Assembly: GCF_900176515.1 (NCBI RefSeq)
Contig: NZ_FWXV01000001.1
Coordinates: 682,001-746,000 of the forward strand
Direction: 5' to 3'
Origin: Kibdelosporangium aridum
GTDB lineage: Bacteria; Actinomycetota; Actinomycetes; Mycobacteriales; Pseudonocardiaceae
Length of the DNA: 64,000 nucleotides
Part shown: piece after piece, positions 6,890 to 35,847 of the stretch
How positions within the stretch are numbered: position 1 is the first letter of the stretch
How the letters are laid out: every line of letters begins with the position of its first letter
Made by a program: the position numbers and the translations under genes
The notes under the pieces: generated by a model
What the model was told of the DNA's origin: nothing
The model's database searches: none
What the model saw: only the letters and a program-made list of their open reading frames with translations

Positions 6890-7690
6890 GTGAAAACTCG
6901 GTGGGGGCAAGTTCTCGCAGTGGTTGCCGCCGTTGTGGTGATCGGCCTGGTCACGGTCCTGCTCGTGGCCAACACCGAACCCGGTGCCGGGCCGAGGCCG
7001 ACGACGACAACGACGACAACCAGGAAGACCACTACGGCGACCCCGCCGCCACGGCCGACGCTGACGGTCGACTCCGGCTGCCGGACCGCGCAGGGACGGG
7101 AGCGTCTGGTCGACGTGCCGCAACACGTCACCGATCGGGTGAACCGCGCCTGGGAGCGGATCGAGAAGTGGCTGGCGGCGAAGGCCCCGGCGAGCGCGCG
7201 GACCTTGGCCCCACCTGCCACGCGTGAGGCGATCTCGGACATGCAGCGGCAGCTGGGCGTCCCGGTTCCGGCTGAGCTGATCGCCTCGTTGCTCCGGCAC
7301 AACGGCGCGGGCACGACCATGCGGGGCTTCACTTTGCCGCCGTTCTACACCCCGATGTCGACGACCGCCATCGTCGACTACCACAAGATGCTGTGCGACA
7401 TCCTCATCTCCAGCGGGCACAACGAAAGCGTCGGCTCGTGGTGGCACGGCCAGGTCATCCCGTTCGCGCAGGACTTCGCCGGCGGCAATCTCCTGCTCGA
7501 CCAGCGGCCGGGCCGCAAAGGCAAGCTGGGGGACCGGGACGAGGAAACCGAGATGATGTTCGACCGGTGGCCTGCGACGCTGACTGACCTGCTGGAACAG
7601 ACCGCCACCGCGTTGGAGACGAACGGCGTCGTGCGGAACTACCACCCCAAGGTGGTCGAGGACGGCATACTGGACTGGGACATCCGCTGA
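6890..7690 (+). CDS. Membrane-anchored SMI1/KNR4-like protein
   Basis: 266 residues from a GTG at 6890. One transmembrane segment (residues 8-27) is followed by a Thr/Pro-rich linker with a run of threonines (38-60), so the bulk of the protein is outside the membrane. The C-terminal 190 residues resemble the SMI1/KNR4 (SUKH) fold: an LGVPVPAELIASLLRHNGAG segment of the kind that opens these domains and a VIPFAQDFAGGNLLLD segment typical of the core. SUKH proteins are often immunity proteins against contact-dependent toxins. No toxin gene is adjacent, so immunity is only one option. Divergent from the esterase operon, with short spacing that implies overlapping promoters. Confidence 0.75.
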   Translation: MKTRWGQVLAVVAAVVVIGLVTVLLVANTEPGAGPRPTTTTTTTRKTTTATPPPRPTLTVDSGCRTAQGRERLVDVPQHVTDRVNRAWERIEKWLAAKAPASARTLAPPATREAISDMQRQLGVPVPAELIASLLRHNGAGTTMRGFTLPPFYTPMSTTAIVDYHKMLCDILISSGHNESVGSWWHGQVIPFAQDFAGGNLLLDQRPGRKGKLGDRDEETEMMFDRWPATLTDLLEQTATALETNGVVRNYHPKVVEDGILDWDIR

Positions 7691-7736
7691 TCCCCGCTGT
7701 CCACAATGTACTGATGGGTGCGGGTACGGTGGACTT

Positions 7737-8333
7737 GTGCCGCCAAGCGACCGGATCCGCCGCGACGCCGAGACCAATCTGCGCAGGGTCCTGGCCGCGG
7801 CGGCGGAGGTGTTCGCCACCCAAGGCCTCGACGCGACCCTCGCTGACGTGGCCAAACACGCCGGGGTCGGGGTCGGCACGGTTTATCGGCGCTTTGCCAA
7901 CAAGGACGAGCTGATCTACGAGGTCTATCGCGAGCGGATCCGTGCCGCCGAGGACCTGGCCATGCGGGCGAGCGAGGCTGACGACGTCTGGGCCGCGTTC
8001 GAGCAGTTCTTCGAGTCGTCCATCCGGGAGCTCGCCGCCGACCGTGGCCTGTGGCAACTGACCACGAGCGGCTTCACCGACTCGCTCGGCTGGTCCCGTG
8101 GCGCCGAGCCGACCCGGCTCGCCGAACTGCTCGCCGACACCCACAAGATCACCGGCGGCTACCTGGACAAGCTGGTCAGCCGGGCCAAGGCGGCCGGTCA
8201 CCTGCGGGCGGACTTCGAGACCGCGGATATGACGGTGCTGTCCGCGGCGGTCCAGGCCACCATCACATTCGGCGATGACGCCTCCCGGCGCGCCCTCGGA
8301 TTCATCCTGGACGGCCTGCGTCAACGCGCGTGA
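7737..8333 (+). CDS. TetR/AcrR family transcriptional regulator
   Basis: 198 residues from a GTG at 7737. The N-terminal HTH is clear at residues 10-56: a VLAAAAEVFATQGLDATL helix, then VAKHAGVGVGTVYRRFANKDEL with the typical recognition helix. The remaining 140 residues form the variable ligand and dimer domain with no diagnostic motif. The likely target is the NmrA-type reductase gene 47 bp downstream on the same strand, with which it may be co-transcribed. A loose inverted repeat (GTCCAC / GTGGAC arms) lies just upstream of the start at about 7699-7733 and could be an autoregulatory operator, but it is imperfect. Confidence 0.88.
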   Translation: MPPSDRIRRDAETNLRRVLAAAAEVFATQGLDATLADVAKHAGVGVGTVYRRFANKDELIYEVYRERIRAAEDLAMRASEADDVWAAFEQFFESSIRELAADRGLWQLTTSGFTDSLGWSRGAEPTRLAELLADTHKITGGYLDKLVSRAKAAGHLRADFETADMTVLSAAVQATITFGDDASRRALGFILDGLRQRA

Positions 8334-8380
8334 ACGAAACGTGCACGCGACGGTGACGCGGCGGGGGTTGCATCAGTGGC

Positions 8381-9325
8381 ATGACCGAAAAGAAGATCAT
8401 CGCCGTTGTCGGAGCCACTGGTCAGCAGGGTGGCGGTCTCGCCCGCGCGATACTCGACGACCCGTCCGGTGAGTTCGCTGTCCGTGCTCTGACTCGCAAT
8501 GCCGAGTCTGACGTTGCTCGCGAGTTGGCGGCGCGTGGCGCGCAGATCGTCAAGGCCGACCTGGATGACCCGGACTCCGTGCGAGCGGCGTTCCAGGGCG
8601 CATACGGCGCCTTCGTGGTGACCGCGTTCTGGGAGTACGGGTCGGCCGAGCGCGAGCAGGCGCACGTGCGTGCCGCGGTCGACGCCGCCAAGGCGGCCAA
8701 CCTGCAGCACGTTGTCTGGTCGACGCTGCCGGACACGCGGCTGCACGTGCCGATCGAGGACGACCGGATGCCCACGTTGCACGGCAAGTACAAGGTGCCG
8801 CACTTCGACAGCAAGGGCGAGTCCGACAAGCTGTTCACCGAAGCCGGTGTGCCGACCACGTTCCTGAGCACGACCATGTACTTCGAGTCCTTCTTGCACT
8901 TTTTCAAGCCAGTCCGTGACGAGCAGGGCACGTTGTACATCACGCTGCCGATGGCCGGCACCCCGCTGCCAGGCGTGGCCCGTGACGACATCGGCCGCAC
9001 CGCGTTCGGCATCTTCAAGCGCGGCAAGGACCTGATCGGCGAGACCGTGAACCTGTCGGGCGAGAACCTCACCGGCCAGGAATACGCCGCCGAGCTGGGC
9101 AAAGCGCTGGGTGAGACGGTCGAGTACCGGCCGATGACCTTCGACCAGGTGCGGGCGCTGCCGGTGCCCGGCGCCGACGACATCGGCAACATGTTCCAGT
9201 ACTACTCGGAGTTCTCCGACTACTTCGCAGGCGTACGCAGGCCGGAGTACGTCCGGACGATCAACCCCGACCTGCAGGACTTCGCCACCTGGCTGTCCCT
9301 GCACAAGGCGGAGTTCGCGGAATAA
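8381..9325 (+). CDS. NmrA/HSCARG-type NAD(P)-binding protein
   Basis: 314 residues. The dinucleotide-binding loop is VVGATGQQGGGLA at residues 9-21, the atypical-SDR glycine motif of NmrA-like proteins. The motif AVDAAKAANLQHVVWST and the absence of a normal YxxxK active site agree with the NmrA/HSCARG group, which senses NADPH or acts as a reductase. Cytoplasmic. It sits 47 bp after a TetR gene and is followed at 58 bp by a monooxygenase gene, so a small redox-stress or xenobiotic-response unit is plausible. Enzymatic activity cannot be told from a sensor role here. Confidence 0.83.
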   Translation: MTEKKIIAVVGATGQQGGGLARAILDDPSGEFAVRALTRNAESDVARELAARGAQIVKADLDDPDSVRAAFQGAYGAFVVTAFWEYGSAEREQAHVRAAVDAAKAANLQHVVWSTLPDTRLHVPIEDDRMPTLHGKYKVPHFDSKGESDKLFTEAGVPTTFLSTTMYFESFLHFFKPVRDEQGTLYITLPMAGTPLPGVARDDIGRTAFGIFKRGKDLIGETVNLSGENLTGQEYAAELGKALGETVEYRPMTFDQVRALPVPGADDIGNMFQYYSEFSDYFAGVRRPEYVRTINPDLQDFATWLSLHKAEFAE

Positions 9326-9383
9326 CGGCGGCGGCACGCCGGTTGACTTGAACATTCATGTCATGCTTGGGTAGGTGAGGGAC

Positions 9384-10442
9384 ATGCAGTTCGGCATCTT
9401 CGGGGTCGGGGACATCGCGATCGACCCGTGGACGGGCAAGGCGCCGTCCGAACACGAGCGCATCAAGAACATGGTGACGATCGCGGCCAAGGCGGAGGAG
9501 ATCGGACTGGATGTCGTCGCGGTCGGCGAACACCACAACCCGCCGTTCGTGACGTCGTCGCCGACCACGATCCTCGGCTACATCGCCGCGCGGACCAGCA
9601 GGATCATCCTGTCCACATCGGTCACGCTGATCACCACGAACGATCCGGTGAAAATCGCCGAGGACTACGCCACCTTGCAGCACCTCGCGGACGGCAGGGT
9701 GGACCTGATGCTCGGCCGCGGCAACACCGGACCGGTGTATCCGTGGTTCGGCAAGGACATCCGCGACGGCCTCAGCCTCGCGGTGGAGAACTACGCGCTG
9801 CTGCGGCAGTTGTGGCGGGAGGACGTGGTGGACTGGGAGGGCAAGCACCGCACTGCGTTGCAGTCCTTCACGTCCACGCCACGGCCGCTCGACGGTGTGC
9901 CGCCGTTCGTCTGGCACGGCTCCATCCGCAGCCCGGAGATCGCGGTCCAGGCCGGGTTCTACGGCGACGGGTTCTTCCACAACAACATCTTCTGGCCCAA
10001 GGAGCACACCAGGCGGATGATCGACCTGTACCGCGGTCAGTTCGAGCACTACGGGCACGGGCCAGCCGACCAGGCGATCGTGGGACTCGGCGGGCAGACG
10101 TTCATGCGGCGCAACTCGCAGGACGCGATCAAGGAGTTCCGGCCGTACTTCGACAACTCCCCGGTGTACGGCGGTGGGCCGTCGCTGGAGCAGACCATGC
10201 GGGAAACACCGATCTCGGTCGGCAGTCCCCAGGAGGTCATCGACCGGACGCTGCGGTTCCGCGAGGACTTCGGTGACTACCAGCGTCAACTGTTCAATGT
10301 GGACGGTATGGGACTTCCGCGGAAGGTCGTCCTCGAACAGCTGGACATCATCGGCGAGGAAGTCCTTCCCGTGCTGCGCAAGGAGTTCGAGTCGATGAAG
10401 CCGAAGGCGCCGACACACGAGACGCTGAAGGTGGCATCATGA
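9384..10442 (+). CDS. LLM-class flavin-dependent oxidoreductase
   Basis: 352 residues from an ATG at 9384, chosen because GGTGAGG sits just upstream; an in-frame GTG at 9375 lacks such a site. It has the luciferase-like TIM-barrel signs: an N-terminal FGIFGVGDIAI strand, VVAVGEHHNPPF, the RVDLMLGRG segment, and a C-terminal SVGSPQEVIDR motif that marks the family. Such enzymes use reduced FMN (or F420) and O2 to oxidise substrates. The next gene, overlapping by 4 bp, encodes an NADPH:FMN reductase of the type that pairs with LLM enzymes, so FMNH2 use is likely. Substrate unknown. Confidence 0.9.
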   Translation: MQFGIFGVGDIAIDPWTGKAPSEHERIKNMVTIAAKAEEIGLDVVAVGEHHNPPFVTSSPTTILGYIAARTSRIILSTSVTLITTNDPVKIAEDYATLQHLADGRVDLMLGRGNTGPVYPWFGKDIRDGLSLAVENYALLRQLWREDVVDWEGKHRTALQSFTSTPRPLDGVPPFVWHGSIRSPEIAVQAGFYGDGFFHNNIFWPKEHTRRMIDLYRGQFEHYGHGPADQAIVGLGGQTFMRRNSQDAIKEFRPYFDNSPVYGGGPSLEQTMRETPISVGSPQEVIDRTLRFREDFGDYQRQLFNVDGMGLPRKVVLEQLDIIGEEVLPVLRKEFESMKPKAPTHETLKVAS

Positions 10443-11029
10443 CACGCACACTCGCTGTGGTGTCCGCGGGCCTGAGCCAGCCGTCGTCGAGCCGCCTGCT
10501 CGCTGACCGGCTGGCCGCGGCCACGGTTCGGGCGGTGCCCGACGAAGTGGACGTGCGGACGATCGAACTCCGCGGTCATGCGCACAGCCTCGTCGATGCG
10601 ATGTTGTCGGGCTTCCCGCCGCAGGACTTCAAACCCGTGCTGGACACCGTGGCCGATGCGGACGGCCTGATCGTGGTCACGCCAACGTATGCCGCGTCCT
10701 ACAGTGGGCTGTTCAAGTCCTTTGTGGATGTGCTTGGCCAGGGTGTGGTCGCCGGAAAGCCGGTGCTGATCGGCGCGACAGGTGGTACGGAACGGCATTC
10801 GCTGGTACTCGACTACGCGATGCGGCCGTTGTTCACGTACCTGAAGGCGATTGTCGTGCCGACAGGGGTCTACGCGGCCTCAGAGGACTGGGCCGGGAAC
10901 ACACTGTCCGCCCGGATCGACCGCGCGGCGGGCGAACTGGCGCACGAGTTGGCGGTGCGGGAGCGAACGGTCATGACGGACCCGTTCGCGAGTCCGACGC
11001 CGTTCGAACATCTCCTGTCCGGAAGCTGA
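10439..11029 (+). CDS. NAD(P)H-dependent FMN reductase partner of the LLM enzyme
   Basis: 196 residues. Flavodoxin-like fold with VSAGLSQPSSSRLLA at the N-terminus (the phosphate-binding loop) and VVTPTYAASYSGLFKSF at about residues 78-95, typical of the NADPH-dependent FMN reductase family. It would provide reduced flavin to the monooxygenase encoded immediately upstream. The ATGA overlap with that gene shows translational coupling. The CE1759-type FMN reductases of actinobacteria occur in this same gene pair. Soluble and cytoplasmic. Confidence 0.88.
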   Translation: MTRTLAVVSAGLSQPSSSRLLADRLAAATVRAVPDEVDVRTIELRGHAHSLVDAMLSGFPPQDFKPVLDTVADADGLIVVTPTYAASYSGLFKSFVDVLGQGVVAGKPVLIGATGGTERHSLVLDYAMRPLFTYLKAIVVPTGVYAASEDWAGNTLSARIDRAAGELAHELAVRERTVMTDPFASPTPFEHLLSGS

Positions 11030-11047
11030 CCAGGTGAGGAGTCAAGG

Positions 11048-12823
11048 GTGGAGCTGCGGTTCGAGGTGCTGGGCCCGGTCCGCGCGTGGCGCGGCGACAC
11101 CGAGGTGGAGCTCGGGTCGCCACAGCAACGCGCGATCCTGGCGATCCTGCTGTTGCACAACGGGACCGCGGCGTCGCCGGACCAGCTGATCAGAGCGACG
11201 TGGGGCGGCGAAGCCCCACGCGCCGCGATCGGCATGGTCCGGTCGTATGTGTCACGGTTGCGCAGTGCGCTCGGCCCGGTGATCGAGTCTGTGGCGCATG
11301 GGTACGCGCTGCCCAAGCCTTCCCTTGACCTGACTGACTTCCAGCGGCACATCAGCGCGGCCAGGGCTGGTGACCTCGCCACCCGTGCTGCGGAGCTGCG
11401 CGCGGCTTTGGCGCTGTGGAAGGGAACTCCGCTCGGAGGTGTGCGCGGTGAATACGCCGAGGCGGAACGCGTACGCCTGGAGAACGTGCAGCTCACCGTG
11501 ATTGAAGACCTGACCGCGGCCGACATCGAGCTCGGCAGGCACGCTGAGGCCGTCGCCGACTTGATGGCGTTGGTCGATCGGCATCCGTTCCGCGAACGGC
11601 CGCGGGAACTGCTGATGCTGGCGCTGTACCGGTCGGGGCGCCAGGCCGAAGCGCTGGCGTTGTTCGACGAGACCCGCCGCGTGCTCAGCGCGGAACTCGG
11701 CATCGCGCCAGGTCCGGAGCTGCGTGAGATGCACCAGCGAATCCTGGTCGCCGACCCCGCGTTGACGCCGGCCGAGACGGTTGCGCCAATGCCGGCGCAA
11801 CTGCCCGCGGACACGCCGTTCTTCGTGGGCCGCCACCAGTTGTTGCCGCAGATCACGGCCGCCTTGCGGGACGGCATTCCGGTCGGGATCGAAGGCTTGT
11901 CCGGTGTGGGCAAGACCGCGCTGGCGGTCCATGTCGGACACCGGATGGCGTCGGAGTTCCCCGATGGCACGTTGTTCGTCGACCTGAACGAATCACCCGA
12001 TCCACTGGCCGAGTTGTTGCACGCTGTCGGTGTCGTCGAACTGCCTCGGACACAGTGGGAACGTCAGACGTTGTGGCGCACGTTGACCAGCGTGAAGCGG
12101 ATGCTGATCGTGATCGACAACGTGCGCGACTCCGTTTCCGCGCTGCTGCCCAGTTCAGGCGGTGTGCTCATGACCGCACGGCAACGGTTGTACGACCCGC
12201 CGCACGCCCGGTGGATCGCCATGGGCGGCCTCGACGAGGACGAGTCGGTCATGCTGCTCGAGCACATGATCGGGGAAGCGAGGGTGCGGGCCGAGCCGAT
12301 CGCGTCCCGGCGGCTGGCCGGCATCACCATGGGCATCCCGCACTTGCTGCAGGCGATGGGAAACCGGATCGCGTCGAGACCGAAGTGGACGATCGCGTCG
12401 GTCACCGAACGAGCCGAACGGCGCACACCGGGCGCGCCTGCCCAACCACCGGAGTGCGCGATGATCGAGCGGCCGTTCAAGCAGATGCTGGCCGACCTCG
12501 ACCAGGAACAAACGCGGACGTTGCTGCTGGTATCGCTGATCGACTCGCCGGATATCGGGGTACGGGCGGCGGCCGCGTTGCTCGACCGGCCTCCCACACT
12601 GACCGAAGACCTGCTTGAGTCCTTGGTGGACAGGCACATGCTGGAGAGCACGGTCCAAGACCGGTACCGATTCCTGACCCCAGTCAAGAAATTCGCCCGT
12701 GCGCGGGCGGTGAGCGACTTCGGCCGGGTGGAGTGTGAGGCCGCGCTCGGCAGGCTGGACGCGTACCACGAAAGCCAGTTCGCCGAAGCGTCACACGGCC
12801 TGAGGCAAGTGACGAGTGTGTGA
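11048..12823 (+). CDS. SARP/AfsR-type regulator with BTAD and NB-ARC domains
   Basis: 591 residues from a GTG at 11048, with GAGGAG upstream. Domains in order: OmpR-like winged-helix DNA-binding domain (about 1-90, FEVLGPVRAW start), bacterial transcriptional activation domain with TPR-like helices (95-240, ending LGIAPGPELREMHQRIL), and an NB-ARC-type P-loop ATPase (Walker A GLSGVGKT at about 283-290, Walker B MLIVIDNV). The usual C-terminal TPR repeats of full AfsR proteins are missing, so it is shorter than AfsR. SARPs activate secondary-metabolite and stress genes. It follows the FMN reductase by 18 bp and may be co-transcribed. No biosynthetic core gene is nearby, so its targets may be elsewhere. 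Confidence 0.88.
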   Translation: MELRFEVLGPVRAWRGDTEVELGSPQQRAILAILLLHNGTAASPDQLIRATWGGEAPRAAIGMVRSYVSRLRSALGPVIESVAHGYALPKPSLDLTDFQRHISAARAGDLATRAAELRAALALWKGTPLGGVRGEYAEAERVRLENVQLTVIEDLTAADIELGRHAEAVADLMALVDRHPFRERPRELLMLALYRSGRQAEALALFDETRRVLSAELGIAPGPELREMHQRILVADPALTPAETVAPMPAQLPADTPFFVGRHQLLPQITAALRDGIPVGIEGLSGVGKTALAVHVGHRMASEFPDGTLFVDLNESPDPLAELLHAVGVVELPRTQWERQTLWRTLTSVKRMLIVIDNVRDSVSALLPSSGGVLMTARQRLYDPPHARWIAMGGLDEDESVMLLEHMIGEARVRAEPIASRRLAGITMGIPHLLQAMGNRIASRPKWTIASVTERAERRTPGAPAQPPECAMIERPFKQMLADLDQEQTRTLLLVSLIDSPDIGVRAAAALLDRPPTLTEDLLESLVDRHMLESTVQDRYRFLTPVKKFARARAVSDFGRVECEAALGRLDAYHESQFAEASHGLRQVTSV

Positions 12824-12847
12824 CGGGGCGCGTCATAGCGTCCGCAC

Positions 12848-13885
12848 ATGAACAGCATCACCGCACGGTTCGCACTGGTCCTGGCCGCCGTGGGCTGGGG
12901 CGGTGCGACCACAGCGACGAAATACGCACTGGACGGGTTCGGGCCGTCCACACTGTTGTTGGTCAAGCTGGCCGCCGCAGCCCTTGTGTTGTGGGCGGTT
13001 CTGGCCGTACGAGGCGCGCCGCGACTCACGCGCAGGGGCCGACTCGCCTGGCTGGGCCTGTTCGAACCCACGCTCGCGTATGGCGCGTTGACGCTCGGCC
13101 TTGCCTATACAACCGCAACCAACGCGGCACTACTCGGCGCGAGCGAGGCGTGTTTCGTCGTCGCGCTGGCCGCGGTGTTCCTCAAGGAACGGATCGGTGC
13201 TCGGTCGCTGATCGGCCTGTTGCTGGCGTTCGTCGGCGTGCTGCTGATCGAGGAAGCCTTCGCGGTCTCGCCGTCGTTCACCTTCGGCGACATGATCATC
13301 CTGGCGGGCAACCTGGCCGCGGCGATCTACGTGATCCTGGCCGCCAAGGTCGCGCCGACCGTCGACACGCTGTCGATGACCGCGTATCAGTTCCTGTGGG
13401 GCGCGGCGATGTCGGTGCCGTTCGCGGTGTTCCAGTGGTCGACCGGTCGGGAAGCGCTCCCGGTCGACGTCCCGTGGCAGTTCTGGGCGGTCGCGGTGAC
13501 GATCGGCGGACTCGGGTTCGCGGGCAGTTTCCTCCTCTACAACCACGTCATCAGGTTCATCCCCGCCGGGCTGGCCGGGGTCACGCTGAACCTCGTGCCG
13601 CTGTTCGGCGTGCTCACCGCGATCGTGTTCCTGGGCGAGGACCTGACTGTCTGGACGTTCACCGGTGGTGTCGCGGTCATCGCCGGGATCATGATGTTCC
13701 CGTCAGACGCTGGCGACCACGGCGTGCTGCGGCAGCCGGGCGTCGATGGCGCGCATTCCCCAGGCAGCGAGGCAAGCACACGCGAAGACGACCGCCCACG
13801 GCAGCCAGATCGCGACCTCGAACAGAGCGACGACACCAGGCGCCGCGACACCCGCGACGGCGAACGAGTATTGGAAGGCCGCTAG
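12848..13885 (+). CDS. EamA/DMT-family transporter with a hydrophilic C-terminal tail
   Basis: 345 residues with about ten transmembrane helices in two EamA repeats (residues 5-135 and 150-280). The conserved start WGGATTATKYALDGFGPSTLL and the second-repeat region FLLYNHVIRFIPAGLAGVTLNL are family-typical. DMT exporters move amino acids or small metabolites. After about residue 284 the sequence turns strongly charged and non-hydrophobic, and the last 61 codons lie opposite the 3' end of the convergent MFS gene, a 183-bp overlap. Family members are normally 280-310 residues, so this tail looks like read-through after loss of the original stop. Start ATG at 12848. Confidence 0.85.
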   Translation: MNSITARFALVLAAVGWGGATTATKYALDGFGPSTLLLVKLAAAALVLWAVLAVRGAPRLTRRGRLAWLGLFEPTLAYGALTLGLAYTTATNAALLGASEACFVVALAAVFLKERIGARSLIGLLLAFVGVLLIEEAFAVSPSFTFGDMIILAGNLAAAIYVILAAKVAPTVDTLSMTAYQFLWGAAMSVPFAVFQWSTGREALPVDVPWQFWAVAVTIGGLGFAGSFLLYNHVIRFIPAGLAGVTLNLVPLFGVLTAIVFLGEDLTVWTFTGGVAVIAGIMMFPSDAGDHGVLRQPGVDGAHSPGSEASTREDDRPRQPDRDLEQSDDTRRRDTRDGERVLEGR

Positions 13886-14887
13886 ATACCGGCCACGGAC
13901 AGCGGGCGGCGCAGCGGCCTCCGCCAGCGCGTTGACCCGTGAGTGGAACACCAACCCAGCTGCGGCTACGACCAAAGTGGTCGCCAACAGGTAAGGAATG
14001 CGCCAACCCGGCGGCAGCGCCACAGCGGCGACGCTGACAAGGCACCACAACGCGAAGAGTCCCGCGCTCAGCGCGATGGCGGTGGTGCGCTTGTACACGC
14101 GGGTCGCGTGCACGGCCAGAGTGCCGCAGGTCGCGTTGATCGCGGTGAACAAGGCCAGGATGACGCCAGGAACCCAGGCGGGCATGTGCAGCTGGTCGAT
14201 CGCGAACACGGGGACACCGATCAGGAAGAAATCGGTGGCCAGACCGACGAGGAACGTCAACGCGATCAGCGTGAGGTAGGGGCGATCACGCAACGGCCCG
14301 TGAGCCTTGAGTTTCTCCGTCACCGCATGCACTTCCGGATGTACCCGGAACCACAACAGCAGGGCGCACAACAGGAAACTCACACCGTCCACCGCGATCG
14401 CGACCGTGTACCCAGTGGGACCGGTCGTTGTCAGCAGCAGACCGGCGGCCAGGCTTCCGGCGCCGAACGAGGCGTTGCGCACCATGCCCGCCACCGCGAA
14501 CGCCTTGTCCTTCGGGCCGGAACCGGCCACGTCGGCGATCAGCGCGAACAGGGAGCCGTAGAACATTTGTTGGCCAGCGGCCAACAAGACGGCTGCGAGC
14601 ACGGTCAGCACGAACCCGTCCGCGAGGAGATAGGTAAACGCGCCCGCTGCCTGCACGACCTGTGCGAGAACCACGACGTTGCGCGGGCCGGCGCGATCCA
14701 CCAACCGGCCGGTCACTGGCAGAATCCCGAGGCCGACCAAGGTTCCGATCATCACGGCCGTGCCCGCCTGTCCCAGCGGCAGACCCACCACGTCGACCAC
14801 GTAGACCAGCGCCAACGGCAGGAACAGCCCGGAACCGAAGTTGTCCACGGCCAGGGCGATGAGCAGGGCGATCCGACTGTTCCCCAT
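13703..14887 (-). CDS. MFS transporter
   Basis: 394 residues, twelve predicted helices, major facilitator superfamily of the drug-efflux type. The A-motif-like loop after helix 2 is GRLVDRAGPRNVVV (about residues 57-70) and helix 1 has the ALAVDNFGSGLFLPLALVY pattern. Start: ATG at 14887; a GTG at 14896 would add three residues. The last 183 bp overlap the convergent DMT transporter gene. It is divergent from the small BTAD regulator at 14974, which is the natural candidate for its control. Substrate unknown; export of a toxic compound or metabolite is likely. Confidence 0.87.
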   Translation of the reverse strand: MGNSRIALLIALAVDNFGSGLFLPLALVYVVDVVGLPLGQAGTAVMIGTLVGLGILPVTGRLVDRAGPRNVVVLAQVVQAAGAFTYLLADGFVLTVLAAVLLAAGQQMFYGSLFALIADVAGSGPKDKAFAVAGMVRNASFGAGSLAAGLLLTTTGPTGYTVAIAVDGVSFLLCALLLWFRVHPEVHAVTEKLKAHGPLRDRPYLTLIALTFLVGLATDFFLIGVPVFAIDQLHMPAWVPGVILALFTAINATCGTLAVHATRVYKRTTAIALSAGLFALWCLVSVAAVALPPGWRIPYLLATTLVVAAAGLVFHSRVNALAEAAAPPAVRGRYLAAFQYSFAVAGVAAPGVVALFEVAIWLPWAVVFACACLAAWGMRAIDARLPQHAVVASV

Positions 14888-29890: not shown

Positions 29891-30388
29891 TCAACTCCAG
29901 CTCACCGGGATGAACACGTCAAAGCTGCGATCCCCCAGCCCCATGTGGTCCCGCTTGCTCACGACCGCGCACGTCACCACGCTGCAATCCAGGTTCGTGC
30001 CGCTCTGCGTGATCCGGATCTGCGTGGTGAAGCTGCCGTCCGCCGCGATCGGCGTCGTTGGGTTGCCGCCGATCGGCGTATTGGTCACCCACGCCGATGC
30101 GCCGACTCCGCTTCCTCCTTGCCCGTTGCCTCCCAGGCACGGCGTCGGATTCTCGCCGTAGTGGTAGTCGTCAGGTACTTGACAGAGCGCGACGTAGTAG
30201 CCCTTGCTCGGGTCGTATCCCGTGCCGGACACGGTGATCGTCTCGCCCGCCGGGTTGAGGCCGGTGGCGTTCGACGCCGACAACGTTCTTCCGTTGTTGG
30301 AGCCGGAACCTGGGGCGGCCGATGCCGGGGTGGCCAGCGCGAGCACGGCGAACGCCGCGAGGCCGAGTGTCACTGACTTGCGAACCAT
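29891..30388 (-). CDS. Secreted Ig/neocarzinostatin-fold-like protein of the heme locus
   Basis: 165 residues. The signal peptide is residues 1-24 (VRKSVTLGLAAFAVLAL, cleavage at ASAAP). The mature part is one beta-rich module that opens with LNPAGETITVSGTGYDP, has a Cys pair spaced CX4C (DCSVVTCAVV) and closes with a GDRSFDVFIPVSW strand. This pattern recalls the neocarzinostatin-like fold, but chromophore-binding specifics are absent, and it is better compared with the N-terminal modules of the two surface proteins encoded at 33234 and 34087. The start is 48 bp from a near-consensus iron box, so it is probably induced with the divergent heme transporter and may bind or relay heme outside the cell (inference). 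No anchor, so released or periplasm-like. Confidence 0.78.
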   Translation of the reverse strand: MVRKSVTLGLAAFAVLALATPASAAPGSGSNNGRTLSASNATGLNPAGETITVSGTGYDPSKGYYVALCQVPDDYHYGENPTPCLGGNGQGGSGVGASAWVTNTPIGGNPTTPIAADGSFTTQIRITQSGTNLDCSVVTCAVVSKRDHMGLGDRSFDVFIPVSWS

Positions 30389-30435
30389 GAACAGCCCTTC
30401 TTGTGACGGACCGTGGTGGGAGTCGGACTAGATTA

Positions 30436-30454
30436 TTAGGTAAGGCTAAGCTAA
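30436..30454. promoter_or_regulatory. DtxR/IdeR iron box in a divergent promoter
   Basis: TTAGGTAAGGCTAAGCTAA matches the 19-bp DtxR/IdeR consensus (TTAGGTTAGGCTAACCTAA) at 17 of 19 positions and is an imperfect palindrome. It sits between the divergent starts at 30388 and 30465, where iron-loaded IdeR would block both promoters. Local AT-richness is clearly above the surroundings. Confidence 0.88.
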
Positions 30455-30464
30455 TGTCGAGCCC

Positions 30465-31463
30465 GTGTTGAGACGGGTTTTGGTCGCAGGACTTCTGCTG
30501 GCGGGCTGTTCTGCGCCCGAGGCGAGCACTTCCACCGTTGCACCCACTGGACCAATCACCGCGGTTGTCGCACGGCCGGACATCGTGCCGATCACCCCCG
30601 CGCCGCAACCGAAACTGCCGGTCACGGTCACCGACAACCAGGGCACGAAGGTGACCGTGACCAGCGTGGATCGCGTCCTGGCATTCGACACGTACGGCAC
30701 GCTCGCCGCCACCGTCTTCGGTCTGGGGCTTGGTGACAAGGTCGTCGGCCGGGACACCTCGACGGGTTTTCCCGCTGCCAAGAACCTGCCTGTCATCACG
30801 GCGAACGGGCATCAGCTCAACGCCGAGGCGATCATGACCCTGCGGCCGAGCGTCGTGATCACGGACACAACCCTCGGCCCGTGGGATGTCGTGCTGCAGC
30901 TTCGCGACTCCGGAATTCCTGTCGTGGTAACGGATTCCAAGCGCACGATCGACAACGTCAACGAGATCGTCGGGCAAGTCGCCAACGCGCTGGGCGTGCC
31001 CGAGGCCGGTGCGCAACTCGTCGAGCGCACGACGAAGGAGATCGCTGAGGCCAAGGCCACCGTTGCGAAGACGCAAAACCAGAAACCGCGGATCGTCTTT
31101 CTCTACCTGCGTGGGCAAGCCGGCGTGTACTACATGTTCGGCAGAGGCAGCGGCGTCGATTCGTTGATCGAGGCTGTCGGCGGTGTCGACGTGGCGACCG
31201 AAGCGGGCATGGACGGCATGAGGCCGATCAACCCCGAAGCACTCGTCAAGGCCAGGCCGGACGTCATCCTGTTGATGACAAAGGGACTTCAGTCGGTCGG
31301 TGGTGTCGACGGCGTCCTGCAACTGCCCGGCGTCGCGCAAACGCCTGCGGGGCAGAACAGGCGCATCATCGACATGGACGACCACCAGATCCTCGGGTTC
31401 GGCCCGCTCACCGCGAGCGTCTTGGACGCGTTGGCCAAGGCGCTGTACGGGACCGCCAAGTGA
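30465..31463 (+). CDS. hmuT: Heme/iron-complex ABC transporter substrate-binding lipoprotein
   Basis: 332 residues from a GTG at 30465. A short signal peptide with lipobox LLAGC puts the lipidated Cys at residue 15. The rest is a class III (BtuF/FhuD/HmuT) binding protein: a VTVTDNQGTKVTVTSVDRVLA N-lobe entry split by a turn, GKDTST-like VVGRDTSTGFP, MTLRPSVVITDTTLGPW, and a C-lobe with GVYYMFGRGSGVDSLIEAVGG. Length and order of genes match HmuT of Corynebacterium. It is translated into hmuU with a 4-bp overlap. Iron box just upstream. Heme specificity comes from context (HtaA-domain gene in the same operon), not from a visible ligand residue. Confidence 0.88.
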   Translation: MLRRVLVAGLLLAGCSAPEASTSTVAPTGPITAVVARPDIVPITPAPQPKLPVTVTDNQGTKVTVTSVDRVLAFDTYGTLAATVFGLGLGDKVVGRDTSTGFPAAKNLPVITANGHQLNAEAIMTLRPSVVITDTTLGPWDVVLQLRDSGIPVVVTDSKRTIDNVNEIVGQVANALGVPEAGAQLVERTTKEIAEAKATVAKTQNQKPRIVFLYLRGQAGVYYMFGRGSGVDSLIEAVGGVDVATEAGMDGMRPINPEALVKARPDVILLMTKGLQSVGGVDGVLQLPGVAQTPAGQNRRIIDMDDHQILGFGPLTASVLDALAKALYGTAK

Positions 31464-32473
31464 AGCTTCGAGTCGTCGCTTTGTTCGCGACGCTCATTGT
31501 CGGCGTGGTCGTGATGGCATTGGTCTCCGCGTCCATCGGCCAGTTCCCGATCCCGCTTGCTGACATCGTCACGTCGGTCTTCGGCGGCAAAGCCGGTGAT
31601 CCGGCCGCCGAAGCGACGCTGTGGAACATCCGCTTCCCTCGGGTGATCATGTCTCTGCTGGTCGGCGGGGTTCTCGGGGTTACCGGCGCGCTGATGCAAG
31701 GGATCTTCGGCAACCCGCTCGCTGAGCCTGGCGTGGTCGGGGTTTCGCTTGGCGCCGCGGTCGGTGCGTGCCTGACGATCGTGTTCCAGTGGAGCTTCCT
31801 TGGCCAGTTCACCACGCCCATCTTCGCGTTCACCTTCGGGCTGGCCACGACCATGGCGGTGTATGTCATGTCCCGATCCCGGGGCAAGACCGAGGTCGTC
31901 ACGTTGCTGCTGACCGGCATCGCGGTGAACGCCGTTGCCGGGGCTGCGATCGCGTTCCTGACGTTCCTCGGTGATCAGCAGGCGCGTGAGCAGATCGTGT
32001 TCTGGCAACTGGGCAGCATCGCGGGCGCACGATGGCCGTACGTGTGGACGGTGATCCCGCTCGCGGCGGTCGGCCTCGTGTTGGCGATGACGTTGGCGCG
32101 CCGGATGGATCTGTTGTCGCTGGGGGAGCGTTCGGCCAGGCATCTCGGCGTGAACGTCGAGGCATTGCGTATGGGCGCGATTGTGCTTGTGGCGCTGATG
32201 GTTTCGGCCGCAGTGTCGTTCACGGGAGTGATCGCGTTCGTCGGCCTCGTTGTGCCGCACGCGATTCGGATGGTTGTCGGACCTGGACACCGTGTCTTGC
32301 TTCCGGCCAGCGCCTTGGGTGGAGCCTTGCTGCTGGTGTCGGCGGATCTTGGCGCGCGCGGGCTGATCACGTTCGTCGACCTGCCGATCGGCATGCTCAC
32401 CGCGTTGGTCGGTGGCCCGTTGTTCTTCTGGTTGCTGCGCCGGACAAGGCGTCGGGCTGGTGGTTGGGCATGA
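31460..32473 (+). CDS. hmuU: Heme/iron-complex ABC transporter permease (FecCD family)
   Basis: 337 residues with about ten transmembrane helices. FecCD-family motifs are RFPRVIMSLLVGGVLGVTGALMQGIF broken over helix 2, NPLAEPGVVGVSLGAAVGA in helix 3, GEHSARHLGV-like GERSARHLGVNVEAL for coupling to the ATPase, and FVGLVVPHAIRMVVG near residue 255-270. It forms the membrane channel with HmuV below and HmuT outside. ATGA-type overlap at both ends indicates a tightly coupled operon. Confidence 0.92.
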   Translation: MKLRVVALFATLIVGVVVMALVSASIGQFPIPLADIVTSVFGGKAGDPAAEATLWNIRFPRVIMSLLVGGVLGVTGALMQGIFGNPLAEPGVVGVSLGAAVGACLTIVFQWSFLGQFTTPIFAFTFGLATTMAVYVMSRSRGKTEVVTLLLTGIAVNAVAGAAIAFLTFLGDQQAREQIVFWQLGSIAGARWPYVWTVIPLAAVGLVLAMTLARRMDLLSLGERSARHLGVNVEALRMGAIVLVALMVSAAVSFTGVIAFVGLVVPHAIRMVVGPGHRVLLPASALGGALLLVSADLGARGLITFVDLPIGMLTALVGGPLFFWLLRRTRRRAGGWA

Positions 32474-33234
32474 CGGAGGTGTTGCGGGCCGACGGCGTCA
32501 GCGTGCGGCTGGGTGGCCAACCGGTGCTTCGGGACGTGTCCTTGCGGCTGCACGCTGGTGAGGTACTGGCGCTGGTTGGGCCGAACGGTTCGGGAAAGTC
32601 CACTTTGCTCAGTGTGCTCGCCGGTGACCTGACGCCAGAGTCGGGCGAGGTCCAGCTGGGCGAGCGGTCCTTGGCCAAGTGGTCCACAAAGGAGCTGGCG
32701 CGGCGTAGGGCGGTGTTGCCCCAACGGATCACATTGTCGTTTCCGTTCACTGTGGACGAGGTCGTCCGAATGGGTCGCGCGCCGTGGGACTCCGGAGACG
32801 ATGATGAGGTGGTCGCCGAAGTCATGGCGCTGACCGACACGACGGCTTTCGCCGGACGGAACTTCAACTCGTTGTCCGGCGGGGAACAGGCACGTGCGGC
32901 ACTGGCTCGGGTTTTGGCTCAGCAGACCGGAATTCTCCTGCTTGACGAGCCCACGGCCGCGCTCGACCTGAAGCACGCCGAGTCAGTTCTGGAGATCGCA
33001 GGGAAACGCGCTTCGGCAGGCGACGCGGTTCTGGTCGTTCTGCACGACCTAGGTTTCGCGGCCGCGCACGCAGACCGGATAGCGGTGCTATCCACTGGCC
33101 GAGTCGTCGCGGACGGCTCGCCCGCCGAGGTGCTGACCGAGGCGTTGCTCAGCGAGGTCTATCAACACCGCGTCGAGGTGTTCGCGCATCCGCGTACTGG
33201 CCGACCAGTCGTCATGCCGTATCGGGAGGGGTAA
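32470..33234 (+). CDS. hmuV: Heme ABC transporter ATP-binding protein
   Basis: 254 residues. Walker A GPNGSGKST at about 38-46, Q-loop region LPQRI, signature LSGGEQARAALARVL near 138-152, Walker B ILLLDEPTAALD near 157-168 and the switch His in VVLHDLGFAA. Typical HmuV/FepC-type ATPase of the iron-complex importers. It overlaps hmuU by 4 bp and shares one base (TAATG) with the following surface-protein gene, so the whole locus from 30465 to 35847 reads as a single operon. Confidence 0.93.
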   Translation: MTEVLRADGVSVRLGGQPVLRDVSLRLHAGEVLALVGPNGSGKSTLLSVLAGDLTPESGEVQLGERSLAKWSTKELARRRAVLPQRITLSFPFTVDEVVRMGRAPWDSGDDDEVVAEVMALTDTTAFAGRNFNSLSGGEQARAALARVLAQQTGILLLDEPTAALDLKHAESVLEIAGKRASAGDAVLVVLHDLGFAAAHADRIAVLSTGRVVADGSPAEVLTEALLSEVYQHRVEVFAHPRTGRPVVMPYREG

Positions 33235-34094
33235 TGAGAGCACGTGTTCTGGGCTTGGCCGCCGTTCTGGGGCTGGCTGTGGCGACTCCGGCATACGCGC
33301 AGGGCGCGACCGTGTCGGTGTCGCCCGCGACCGCAGACCCGCAGTACGCCACAACATTGACCTTGCAGGGCAAGGGTTTTCAGTCCGTGAAGAACGGTCA
33401 TGGCGGAATTTACGTGTTCTTCGGCTGGGTCTCCGACCCGGATGGCGGTTCATGGCGGCCAAGCAAGGGCGGTGCCAGCGGGGCGACGTTCAAGTACGTC
33501 CAGGACCGTGAAACCAAGGACAACAACGGTTATCAGCGTTTTGTGGCGTTCCCAGGCAGTGATACGGCCGCGTCGGCCAATGGCGGTGTTGTTGCCGAGA
33601 ACGGTACGTGGAGCACCAGGCTGAACATCCCCGGCCCTCGCTTCAAAGCCGCCGACCGATCAGGCGGCGTGTCCGAAGTAGACTGCCTGAAGTCGCGTTG
33701 CGGTGTGATCACGGTCGGCGCGCACGGCGTGGTGAACGCCAACAACGAGACCTTCACCCCGATCAGTTTCGCTGTTCCCGACCAGCAGCCCGCACCACCA
33801 CCTCAACCGAAGGCGACGACGACCACGCCTCCGGCGGCGACCACCACTTCACTTCCTCCGACGACGACCACCTCGACTTCCGTCACCACCACATCGGTGG
33901 AGACGACGAGCGAGGCGCGAACTCCGGAGCCAGCGGCGCAGGCGCAGCCACTCCCACGGGACACTGGGCCGAACCTCTGGCTGCTGATCGGTATTCCGGT
34001 CCTCGTCCTGGTGGCTGTGGGTGGTCTGGTGCTGTCTCGTCGACGCCTTGGTGCCCACAAGGGATCAGCGCAGAAAGAGACAAGCGATGAGTAA
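33234..34094 (+). CDS. Surface protein with Ig/neocarzinostatin-like module and C-terminal anchor
   Basis: 286 residues. Signal peptide 1-22 (ending AYAQG). Module at 23-180 with TLTLQGKGF, a DCLKSRCGVI Cys pair (CX4C, as in the 29891 protein) and a closing FTPISF strand. Then a Pro/Thr-rich stalk (about 185-235) and a C-terminal LPRDTG (240-245), a hydrophobic stretch (about 248-268) and a basic tail. LPRDTG resembles a sortase motif with one extra residue, and the 17-residue tail is long for a sorting signal, so a plain membrane anchor is equally possible. Located between hmuV and the HtaA gene. Probably a heme-receiving surface component similar in role to HtaB (inference). Confidence 0.8.
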   Translation: MRARVLGLAAVLGLAVATPAYAQGATVSVSPATADPQYATTLTLQGKGFQSVKNGHGGIYVFFGWVSDPDGGSWRPSKGGASGATFKYVQDRETKDNNGYQRFVAFPGSDTAASANGGVVAENGTWSTRLNIPGPRFKAADRSGGVSEVDCLKSRCGVITVGAHGVVNANNETFTPISFAVPDQQPAPPPQPKATTTTPPAATTTSLPPTTTTSTSVTTTSVETTSEARTPEPAAQAQPLPRDTGPNLWLLIGIPVLVLVAVGGLVLSRRRLGAHKGSAQKETSDE

Positions 34095-35847
34095 GGTCAG
34101 ACGGTTAGGCGTGGTGGCGCTGGGGGCGTTGCTGCTGGTCGCGGCGCCCGCGCCAGCGTCGGCACAACAGGCGAAGCCGAGCGTGTCGTTGTCCAGCGCC
34201 AGCGATTTGGACCCGGCCGGGCAGAAGATCACCATCAAGGGCACCGCCTTCGACCCGAAGTTCGGTGACGGCAAGGGCTACGGTGTCCGCATCGGTCCAC
34301 AGCGGACAGGCTGGCGGGACAAGGCGACCACGACCTTCACCCAGTACAGCAAGCTGCTGAAGGAGAACTGGCAGTTCGGCATCGACCTGAAGCCGGACGG
34401 CACATGGCAGACCGAGGTGACGGTCAAGGCAAGCTACACCGCGGGCGGCGAGACGATCAGCGCGGCGAACGAGCAGTTCTACGTGATGATCTTCCCGTGG
34501 GACAACCCTGACACGTCGAAGGACATCGTCATCCCGCTGAAGTTCAAGGCGGCCGGCAACCCACTCGACGGCGCGCTGAACTGGGGGATCAAGGCCTCCT
34601 GGCGTGGCTACATCGCGCGCGGCGGCACGATCACACCGTCCCAAGGCGCCGCTTTCGACAACGCAGGCACACCACCGTTGCCTTATGTGTGGCCGTTCAA
34701 GTCGGCATCTTTCGACCCGCGCGCGGGCAAGGGCGAGGTGCAGTTCTCCGGCAAGGTCATTTTCGCCTACGAGGCGCACACGATCTGGGACTACGGCCTG
34801 GCCAACCCGAAGATCGTGATCAACCCCGACGGCAAGGGCGTGCTGCAGGCGACGGTCAACACGGCGTTCTACGGGACCAAGGCGCAGCCGGAGAAAGTGT
34901 TCGGGCCCAAGGAGATCGCGTACGCCGACTTGGTGTTCGACGGCAAGCCGGTGGTGTCCGGGCGTAGCGTCACCGTGAAGATCAAGTCGGCGGCGTTGAC
35001 CGAGGACGGCGCGGCTGCGTTCGCCGGGTTCTATCCCAAGGGCACGGAGGTCGACGCAGGCACCGTGACCTTCACCGCGGACGTCCCGGCCGAGTGTGAG
35101 GCAAGCACCCAGTTCGACAAGGGCGACCTGGTGTGGGGCTTCAAACGCAGCTTCCGGCAGTACGTGGGCAACGGCAGCGGCAACAGCATCAAGGCCTCCG
35201 GCGGAGCCGCGATCACGGACATCGACGTCGTGCCCAATCAGAACGGTGTGGCAACCGGTGCGCACCGGTATCCGTTCAAGTCGGCGAGGTACACATCGGA
35301 CACCAAGTTCGAGGTCGTGTTCGGCGGGATGATCAGCTTCGACTACCCGGCGCACCTCTTCACTGTGCACCTCGGCAATCCGCGAGTGGTTGTCGACGGC
35401 AAGACGGGATCGTTGTTCGCGGACGTCGAGTTGACGGCGAAAGAGGGCGCGCCGGGTAAGCCGGCCAAGCTGACCGGCGTCGAACTGGCGAAGCTGAATC
35501 TGGACGCGGCGAAGGCGACGAATGCCGACGGAGTGGTGACGATCGCCGGCGTTGCCGCGACTCTGGCGAGTTCTGAGGCGTTCGCCGGGTTCTACGCCGC
35601 TGGTGACAAGCTCGACACCATGACCATCACGCTCGGTGCCGCGTGTTCTTCACTGCCGCCACCGGCTTCGACGCCGCCAGCCGGTGCGACCGAGGCTGCG
35701 GAGGATCTGGTGCCGCCGTTGAACTTCCGGCCGGCCGAACTGGCCAACACCGGCGTCAACCCGGTCGGGCTGTTGACGCTCGGTGCGCTGTTGCTGATGT
35801 CCGGCGCCGGAATGGTCTACTTCGGACGAAGGGTCAAGCGGACTTGA
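34087..35847 (+). CDS. htaA-like: HtaA-domain heme-binding surface protein with LAXTG sorting signal
   Basis: 586 residues from ATG 34087. Signal peptide 1-26 (APASAQ). Then an N-terminal module like those of the two other secreted proteins (DLDPAGQKITIKGTAFDP, to about 165), two HtaA domains (about 168-325, starting LNWGIKASWRGYIA, and about 365-520, starting LVWGFKRSFRQYV), and a C-terminal sorting signal: LANTG at 552-556, a hydrophobic run, and RRVKRT at the end. HtaA domains bind hemin through a conserved Tyr in Corynebacterium. LAXTG is the motif preferred by class E sortases of high-GC actinomycetes, so the protein is likely wall-linked. It would capture heme and hand it to HmuT. Confidence 0.88.
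   Translation: MSKVRRLGVVALGALLLVAAPAPASAQQAKPSVSLSSASDLDPAGQKITIKGTAFDPKFGDGKGYGVRIGPQRTGWRDKATTTFTQYSKLLKENWQFGIDLKPDGTWQTEVTVKASYTAGGETISAANEQFYVMIFPWDNPDTSKDIVIPLKFKAAGNPLDGALNWGIKASWRGYIARGGTITPSQGAAFDNAGTPPLPYVWPFKSASFDPRAGKGEVQFSGKVIFAYEAHTIWDYGLANPKIVINPDGKGVLQATVNTAFYGTKAQPEKVFGPKEIAYADLVFDGKPVVSGRSVTVKIKSAALTEDGAAAFAGFYPKGTEVDAGTVTFTADVPAECEASTQFDKGDLVWGFKRSFRQYVGNGSGNSIKASGGAAITDIDVVPNQNGVATGAHRYPFKSARYTSDTKFEVVFGGMISFDYPAHLFTVHLGNPRVVVDGKTGSLFADVELTAKEGAPGKPAKLTGVELAKLNLDAAKATNADGVVTIAGVAATLASSEAFAGFYAAGDKLDTMTITLGAACSSLPPPASTPPAGATEAAEDLVPPLNFRPAELANTGVNPVGLLTLGALLLMSGAGMVYFGRRVKRT

Follow-up and report, generated by a model that had tools for sequence, protein, structure and literature searches.

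The window, by which we mean the whole analysed stretch of 64,000 nucleotides from contig NZ_FWXV01000001.1 of Kibdelosporangium aridum, contains a predicted heme uptake locus in which three predicted secreted proteins, here called NCS165, S286, and HtaA, carry a similar small module (Table 1). On the forward strand, the genes follow the order hmuT, hmuU, hmuV, S286, and htaA, and neighbouring ends overlap or touch, as would befit a single operon. The NCS165 gene is divergent from hmuT, with a gap of 76 bp between the two starts, and this gap holds the sequence TTAGGTAAGGCTAAGCTAA, which agrees at 17 of 19 positions with the 19-bp DtxR/IdeR consensus. It is the sole site in the window within three mismatches of that consensus (none expected from shuffled sequence); with at most two mismatches allowed, four separate sites, this one among them, occur in the whole assembly of 12.3 Mb and 40 contigs. 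When the region upstream of hmuT was scored in the window and 75 related loci, 56 of the 76 scorable regions reached at least 14/19, a score attained by 2 of 760 mononucleotide shuffles and by none of 76 stretches taken inside the operon. The shared promoter of NCS165 and hmuT therefore contains a predicted DtxR/IdeR operator-like site.

Table 1. Features of the heme uptake locus, in window positions.
Feature	Position	Strand	Description
NCS165	29891..30388	-	165-residue predicted free secreted protein, neocarzinostatin family
Iron box, DtxR/IdeR-like	30436..30454	+	in the 76-bp divergent promoter; 2 mismatches to the consensus
hmuT	30465..31463	+	heme-binding lipoprotein of the importer; PF01497; lipobox visible in sequence; His and Tyr-x-Arg ligands present
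hmuU	31460..32473	+	FecCD-type permease; PF01032, 303.5 bits
hmuV	32473..33234	+	heme importer ATPase; NF010068, 326.8 bits against a cut-off of 261
S286	33234..34094	+	286 residues: signal peptide, module, Thr-rich linker, C-terminal hydrophobic helix (hydropathy, synteny)
S286 module	33297..33794	+	predicted neocarzinostatin fold; Tyr60 and His164 invariant
htaA	34087..35847	+	N-terminal module, two HtaA/CR domains (PF04213), LANTG-type wall-sorting C-terminus
HtaA N-terminal module (HtaA-N)	34174..34551	+	predicted neocarzinostatin fold; no cysteines, no Tyr/His pair
HtaA CR1	34567..35067	+	PF04213, 101.1 bits; Ser-x3-Tyr, helper His, Tyr
HtaA CR2	35122..35631	+	PF04213, 110.4 bits; Ser-x3-Tyr, helper His, Tyr

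The importer genes and htaA gave the locus its functional context. HmuT matched the solved chain 5az3 (E 1.2e-73), the HmuT of C. glutamicum. According to the available text of PMC4926363, HmuT binds heme through a His and a Tyr, with an Arg as partner in a Tyr-x-Arg motif; both ligands and the Arg are present in the HmuT of the window, and all three residues were kept in 16 of 16 aligned HmuT sequences, 12 of them encoded next to an NCS165 gene and four others. With these axial ligands, a FecCD permease, and a HmuV ATPase, hmuT-hmuU-hmuV is, as judged from its residues and family matches, a heme importer of the HmuTUV type. Both PF04213 domains of HtaA lie in one frame, and no other match to this family was detected in the assembly. 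Residues 171, 229, and 314 of the first domain and 355, 421, and 501 of the second correspond to the Ser-x3-Tyr, His, and Tyr elements, to which the roles reported for CR domains in the available text of PMC12494546 (Ser-x3-Tyr, helper His/Tyr, and propionate Tyr) were assigned by motif correspondence rather than by structure. Among close relatives of HtaA (rows P0151-P0153), the first CR domain was degenerate in three of five, with a TIG-like domain beside it, and in another locus (L112, positions 6931-14598) the HtaA frame is 2556 residues long, with matches to four CR domains and several to modules.

An earlier note on this DNA, made from the letters and translations alone, had described a similar beta-rich module in the three proteins, had likened it to neocarzinostatin, and had proposed profile-profile comparison and structure prediction as checks. 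The strings that it quoted are all present in the translations of the three genes, and both checks upheld the likeness. In profile-profile comparisons, each a single comparison of shallow alignments, the S286 and NCS165 families aligned with a probability of 98.3% (E 1.3e-14; module-only 95.6%, E 1.2e-8) and HtaA-N aligned with the NCS165 family at 97.3% (E 1.7e-11, in an alignment covering the signal peptides as well; module-only 95.7%, E 8.8e-9). A further link came from modules that other loci encode fused to HtaA, which were matched by S286 at 98.65% (E 5e-16) and by HtaA-N at 96.8% (E 2e-10). The direct module-only comparison of HtaA-N with S286 was weak (30%, E 5.5e-4), and the full-length alignment of S286 with HtaA paired repeats other than the HtaA N-terminal module. 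Because iterated hidden Markov models of the three module types drifted together, our homology claims rest on the hhalign comparisons and the structure models, and the module-type labels used in the locus scans are approximate, the iterated profiles having drifted into one another. Taken together, the modules are homologous by these profile comparisons, with a similarity beyond chance.

The modules are predicted to adopt the neocarzinostatin (chromoprotein) fold, on the evidence of Pfam and profile comparison for NCS165 and of structure models for S286 and HtaA-N. The predicted structures of the S286 module and HtaA-N match one and the same solved family, the enediyne chromoproteins; for HtaA-N, Foldseek alone returned only beta-sandwiches of a general kind, all with E above 0.001. 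NCS165 passed PF00960 marginally (25.5 bits against a cut-off of 25), while S286 and HtaA gave no match to it at E 1, so that by Pfam only NCS165 is a family member. S286 belongs to no Pfam family, and sequence searches of the PDB returned no relative of it. A PF00960 search of the whole assembly was uninformative, since it missed the window's own gene and matched none of 14 controls. A NEAT identity was considered and set aside, as none of the three proteins showed this domain in its Pfam results at E 1. With regard to location, hydropathy indicates a signal peptide and no anchor in NCS165; the C-terminus of HtaA passes the LPXTG-anchor model TIGR01167 (16.6 bits against a cut-off of 15.9), and S286 fails it (13.0 bits) and ends in a strong hydrophobic stretch. 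One protein (NCS165) is thus predicted to be free and two (S286 and HtaA) anchored, as the note had supposed.

When other genomes were searched, S286 returned 648 homologues at E 0.001, and the best 120 of these were all at least 60% identical in the best local alignment. Gene order was read from frames (stop to stop) found by profiles, some of them iterated, in the best 80 of the loci confirmed in named genomes (187 in all); several of the 80 are cut by contig ends. A HmuV frame preceded S286 in 75 of these 80 loci and an HtaA-domain frame came next after it in 76; any HtaA was present in 78, HmuT in 75, HmuU in 76, and HmuV in 79. In 76 of 76 cases the HtaA open frame began at most 39 bases past the S286 stop, and the HmuV and S286 stop codons lay no more than 1800 bases apart in 74 of 75, which indicates that the genes are neighbours. 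An HtaA-domain frame also carried a module match in 43 of the 80 loci, some of these matches being weak, and a divergent NCS165 occurred in seven. Among these loci a near-identical one, with 95% identity over S286, stands in the record of Rhodococcus rhodnii NRRL B-16535 (L001), a record name that looks doubtful, as the other close relatives of the locus are Pseudonocardiales. By gene content and order, S286 belongs to heme uptake loci well beyond the Kibdelosporangium genome.

For a wider view, the same class sample of 296 genomes was scanned for all families at E 0.001. Here, a module-only class alignment was employed for S286, as the phylum-wide scan with full-length S286 had mostly caught the C-terminal Ig/TIG-like part of other members. 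HtaA was found in 67 genomes, the S286 type in 28, the fused type in 43, and the NCS165 type in 63; any module type occurred in 90 genomes, 55 of which have HtaA, so that the module accompanies 55 of the 67 HtaA genomes (Fisher 3e-24, a value that ignores kinship). Additionally, the locus held modules in six of seven HtaA genomes chosen for having no strong S286 match. In the seventh, the HtaA-HmuTUV locus (L111) showed no module by any profile used, resembling in this the 12 HtaA genomes of the sample without one. At E <1e-15, 82 genomes retained a module, and 29 of these were without Pfam-detected HtaA, including 20 that also had no ferrochelatase. Three of the other nine (G472, G497, and G579) had S286 beside HmuTUV, and in two of these three loci (L117 and L119) an HtaA-like frame had been missed by Pfam.

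The association of NCS165 with importers extended to genomes lacking Pfam-detected HtaA, which supplied 11 of 15 loci taken for their strong NCS165 matches. NCS165 stood beside a HmuTUV-like importer in 12 of the 15, including 10 of those 11, and it was divergent from hmuT in nine of the 12. The heme synthesis genes were then considered in 32 genomes (25 HtaA-less ones with NCS165 at E <1e-25, six that have HtaA, and G471). HemB was missing from 21 of them and ferrochelatase from the same 21, whose assemblies measure 1.3 to 3.1 Mb and are 96-100% complete; with neither gene, they are predicted heme auxotrophs. Their size and class suggest Nanopelagicales and similar lineages, for which heme auxotrophy has been reported (available text of PMC12381374 and PMC10202952). 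Eight of the 21 loci were read, and NCS165 adjoined the importer in seven. Since several genomes without two heme synthesis genes keep a relative of the module next to a predicted heme importer, the module likely captures heme or hands it over. In the class sample, NCS165 occurred in 22 of 46 ferrochelatase-less genomes and in 41 of 250 ferrochelatase-bearing ones (Fisher 9e-6, again ignoring kinship). Loci L143, L145, L146, and L151-L154 are those in which an NCS165-type gene adjoins a HmuTUV-like importer in a genome without HemB and ferrochelatase; in L143 that gene is followed by another frame, 329 residues long, that encodes a related module.

Conserved residues point to a candidate ligand site. 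The alignment of 32 diverse NCS165-type sequences contained 16 invariant positions, including Tyr65, Trp100, Asp147, His148, Arg154, Asp157, and four Cys (window numbering). The earlier note had seen a CX4C pair common to NCS165 and S286; it is present and extends in both to DC-X4-C-X7-H, and in S286 this motif, with His164, and Tyr60 were invariant in 46 of 46 aligned sequences. NCS165 thus has four cysteines, S286 one pair, and HtaA-N none, the disulfides themselves being predicted. The invariant Tyr, on one strand, and the His, seven residues past the second cysteine of the CX4C pair, are candidate iron ligands of NCS165 and S286, and in an Ig-like sandwich the Tyr strand pairs with the strand ending at the His, so that the two may be close. 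HmuT likewise uses a Tyr and a His as its ligands, and in most CR domains the two act as ligand and helper (available text of PMC4926363 and PMC12494546). The NCS165 profile also matched ThiX (PDB 7qhm chain M, E 9.1e-14), which has the Tyr and the DC-X4-C-X7-H motif. In C. glutamicum, ThiX is a lipoprotein accessory to the bcc-aa3 supercomplex, and PMC8795186 gives its soluble part as unresolved.

We moderately favour the reading that this is a heme uptake locus with a DtxR/IdeR-like box in which the three predicted secreted proteins share a homologous module of predicted neocarzinostatin fold, and that NCS165 and S286 likely bind heme in a cleft of the chromophore type, passing it on between HtaA and HmuT. 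What was observed directly is the gene order, the box, the conserved heme ligands in HtaA and in HmuT, the fact that the modules are homologous, and their association in genomes with HmuTUV and HtaA; the fold and cell locations enter as predictions, and heme binding by NCS165 and S286 is inferred. Some artificial metalloenzymes on the neocarzinostatin scaffold reportedly held metalloporphyrins, which lends plausibility to a porphyrin ligand and is no proof of one. Such metalloenzymes on this scaffold appear in reference titles of PMC6288486 and PMC7411666. Under this scheme, iron starvation would vacate the box and both transcripts would rise. HtaA at the wall takes heme via its CR domains, and NCS165 would serve as a free hemophore, capturing heme at a distance or acting as the receptor where HtaA is missing. 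S286, which might fill the place of the corynebacterial HtaB, would hold its module at the membrane beside HmuT and hand heme to it. HtaA-N, having no Tyr/His pair, would be a scaffold or docking piece.

Several observations weigh against this reading. HtaA-N has neither cysteines nor the invariant Tyr/His pair; most HtaA-fused modules retain the Tyr and have neither the His nor the cysteines. In the 30 that were aligned, the Tyr is kept and the His is not, and a few others, such as one in L120, have Asp-His. Heme handling is consequently better founded for NCS165 and S286, and HtaA-N is likelier, by its residues, to be a scaffold. No module match was found in 12 of the 67 HtaA genomes, so the modules are not essential to HtaA-based uptake, and no importer was seen in three of the 15 NCS165 loci (L147, L150, and L157). 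A further 24 of the 46 ferrochelatase-less genomes, several of them incomplete, had no NCS165 match, and the HmuV neighbours of NCS165 in small genomes scored under the NCBIfam heme-transporter cut-off (150.6, 188.3, and 215.7 against 261). The predicted models of the modules carry no ligand, the closeness of Tyr and His is deduced from the fold, and ThiX, which has no known heme role, retains the His as well. The earlier proposal of a dedicated family of heme-handling modules is supported as regards a common predicted fold and occurrence in heme uptake loci beyond this genome, and the residues of HtaA-N speak against a uniform role.

Modules that do not bind heme at all, and are instead Ig-like docking or spacer domains joining HtaA and HmuT, holding the cell wall, or gripping surrounding hemoproteins, would account for HtaA-N, which lacks both Tyr and His, for the absence of the His from most HtaA-fused modules, and for the repetition of modules in long HtaA frames (L112 and L116); Ig-like folds often serve as adaptors. 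This explanation is unlikely, albeit the most serious of the rivals: NCS165, a small protein made of this one domain, persists next to HmuTUV-like importers in loci without a detected HtaA, the predicted fold matches ligand carriers in particular and not Ig domains in general, and none of the 32 diverse sequences departs from the Tyr, Trp, Asp-His, Arg, and Asp. We regard as improbable that the modules carry another ligand, such as another tetrapyrrole, a siderophore, or a hydrophobic small molecule, with an importer that serves not only for heme. FecCD importers do take several ligands, as illustrated by NCBIfam matches, on either side of the cut-off, to members for heme, siderophores, and B12, and chromoprotein-fold proteins bind varied small ligands to judge from PDB titles. 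Such versatility is countered by the adjacent HmuT proteins, in all 16 of which the two axial ligands of heme are present, by HtaA as the common partner, and by the 21 module-bearing genomes without HemB and ferrochelatase. Finally, that NCS165 is an enediyne apoprotein or self-protection protein placed beside heme genes by chance is hardly credible, its PF00960 match at the cut-off being offset by 38.2 bits against the equivalog cut-off of 86 (NF040680, enediyne antibiotic chromoprotein), by the recurrence of its family beside hmuT in other genomes, and by the window's having no listed frame above 1162 residues and so no large polyketide synthase within its 64 kb (frames running off the ends are unlisted). 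On the same model, S286 and HtaA scored 24.2 and 21.8 bits over residues 8-51 and 10-57, stretches that are partly signal peptide.

Returning to heme relay by NCS165 and S286, a broader proposal can be put forward tentatively, as somewhat less likely than not: proteins of the chromoprotein fold would be an old actinobacterial heme-capture family, occurring free, membrane-anchored, and HtaA-fused, that acts as the main extracellular heme receptor in HtaA-less, heme-auxotrophic actinobacteria with small genomes; enediyne carriers would have arisen from it by exchanging heme for another ligand, and ThiX would bring the module into the respiratory supercomplex. The enediyne carriers may, then, be an offshoot of heme-locus modules. 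If true, an undescribed class of extracellular component would be added to actinobacterial heme uptake, the heme-auxotrophic small-genome actinobacteria would gain a concrete candidate for heme acquisition, a long-studied antibiotic-carrier fold would have a plausible original job, and a role would be suggested for the unexplained ThiX subunit, for which anything heme-related would be new. In one open literature library, within the text it makes available, no paper was found that links the neocarzinostatin fold with bacterial heme uptake, and the best reading is that the modules form an undescribed class of chromoprotein-fold proteins that would handle heme. According to a 2025 paper (PMC12161575), the heme/iron cluster of S. 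coelicolor includes an unassigned gene, SCO2269. This gene is a candidate lead for the same question.

When compared to known systems, the closest corynebacterial counterpart is HtaA/HtaB-HmuTUV, in which the CR domains of HtaA and HmuT have the same ligand residues; the window locus adds chromoprotein-fold modules in free, anchored, and HtaA-fused form, which are undescribed in the available text of PMC12494546 and PMC4926363. ThiX shares the Tyr, the CX4C pair, and the His with the NCS165 family, whereas ThiX itself is a respiratory-complex lipoprotein. The enediyne chromoproteins (neocarzinostatin, macromomycin, C-1027, actinoxanthin, and kedarcidin; PF00960, NF040680), whose apoproteins are small secreted ligand carriers, have the fold found in the S286 and HtaA-N models, and NCS165 resembles them in its family match and four cysteines. 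In contrast to them, the modules fall below the equivalog cut-off and are situated in a heme locus, and NCS165 has an invariant Asp-His near its C-terminus, with PDB alignments to macromomycin and kedarcidin stopping short of that His. The NEAT hemophores of the Isd systems offer a functional analogy, as these too are small Ig-like extracellular modules that handle heme in free or anchored form, while the closest solved fold of the modules described here is that of the chromoproteins.

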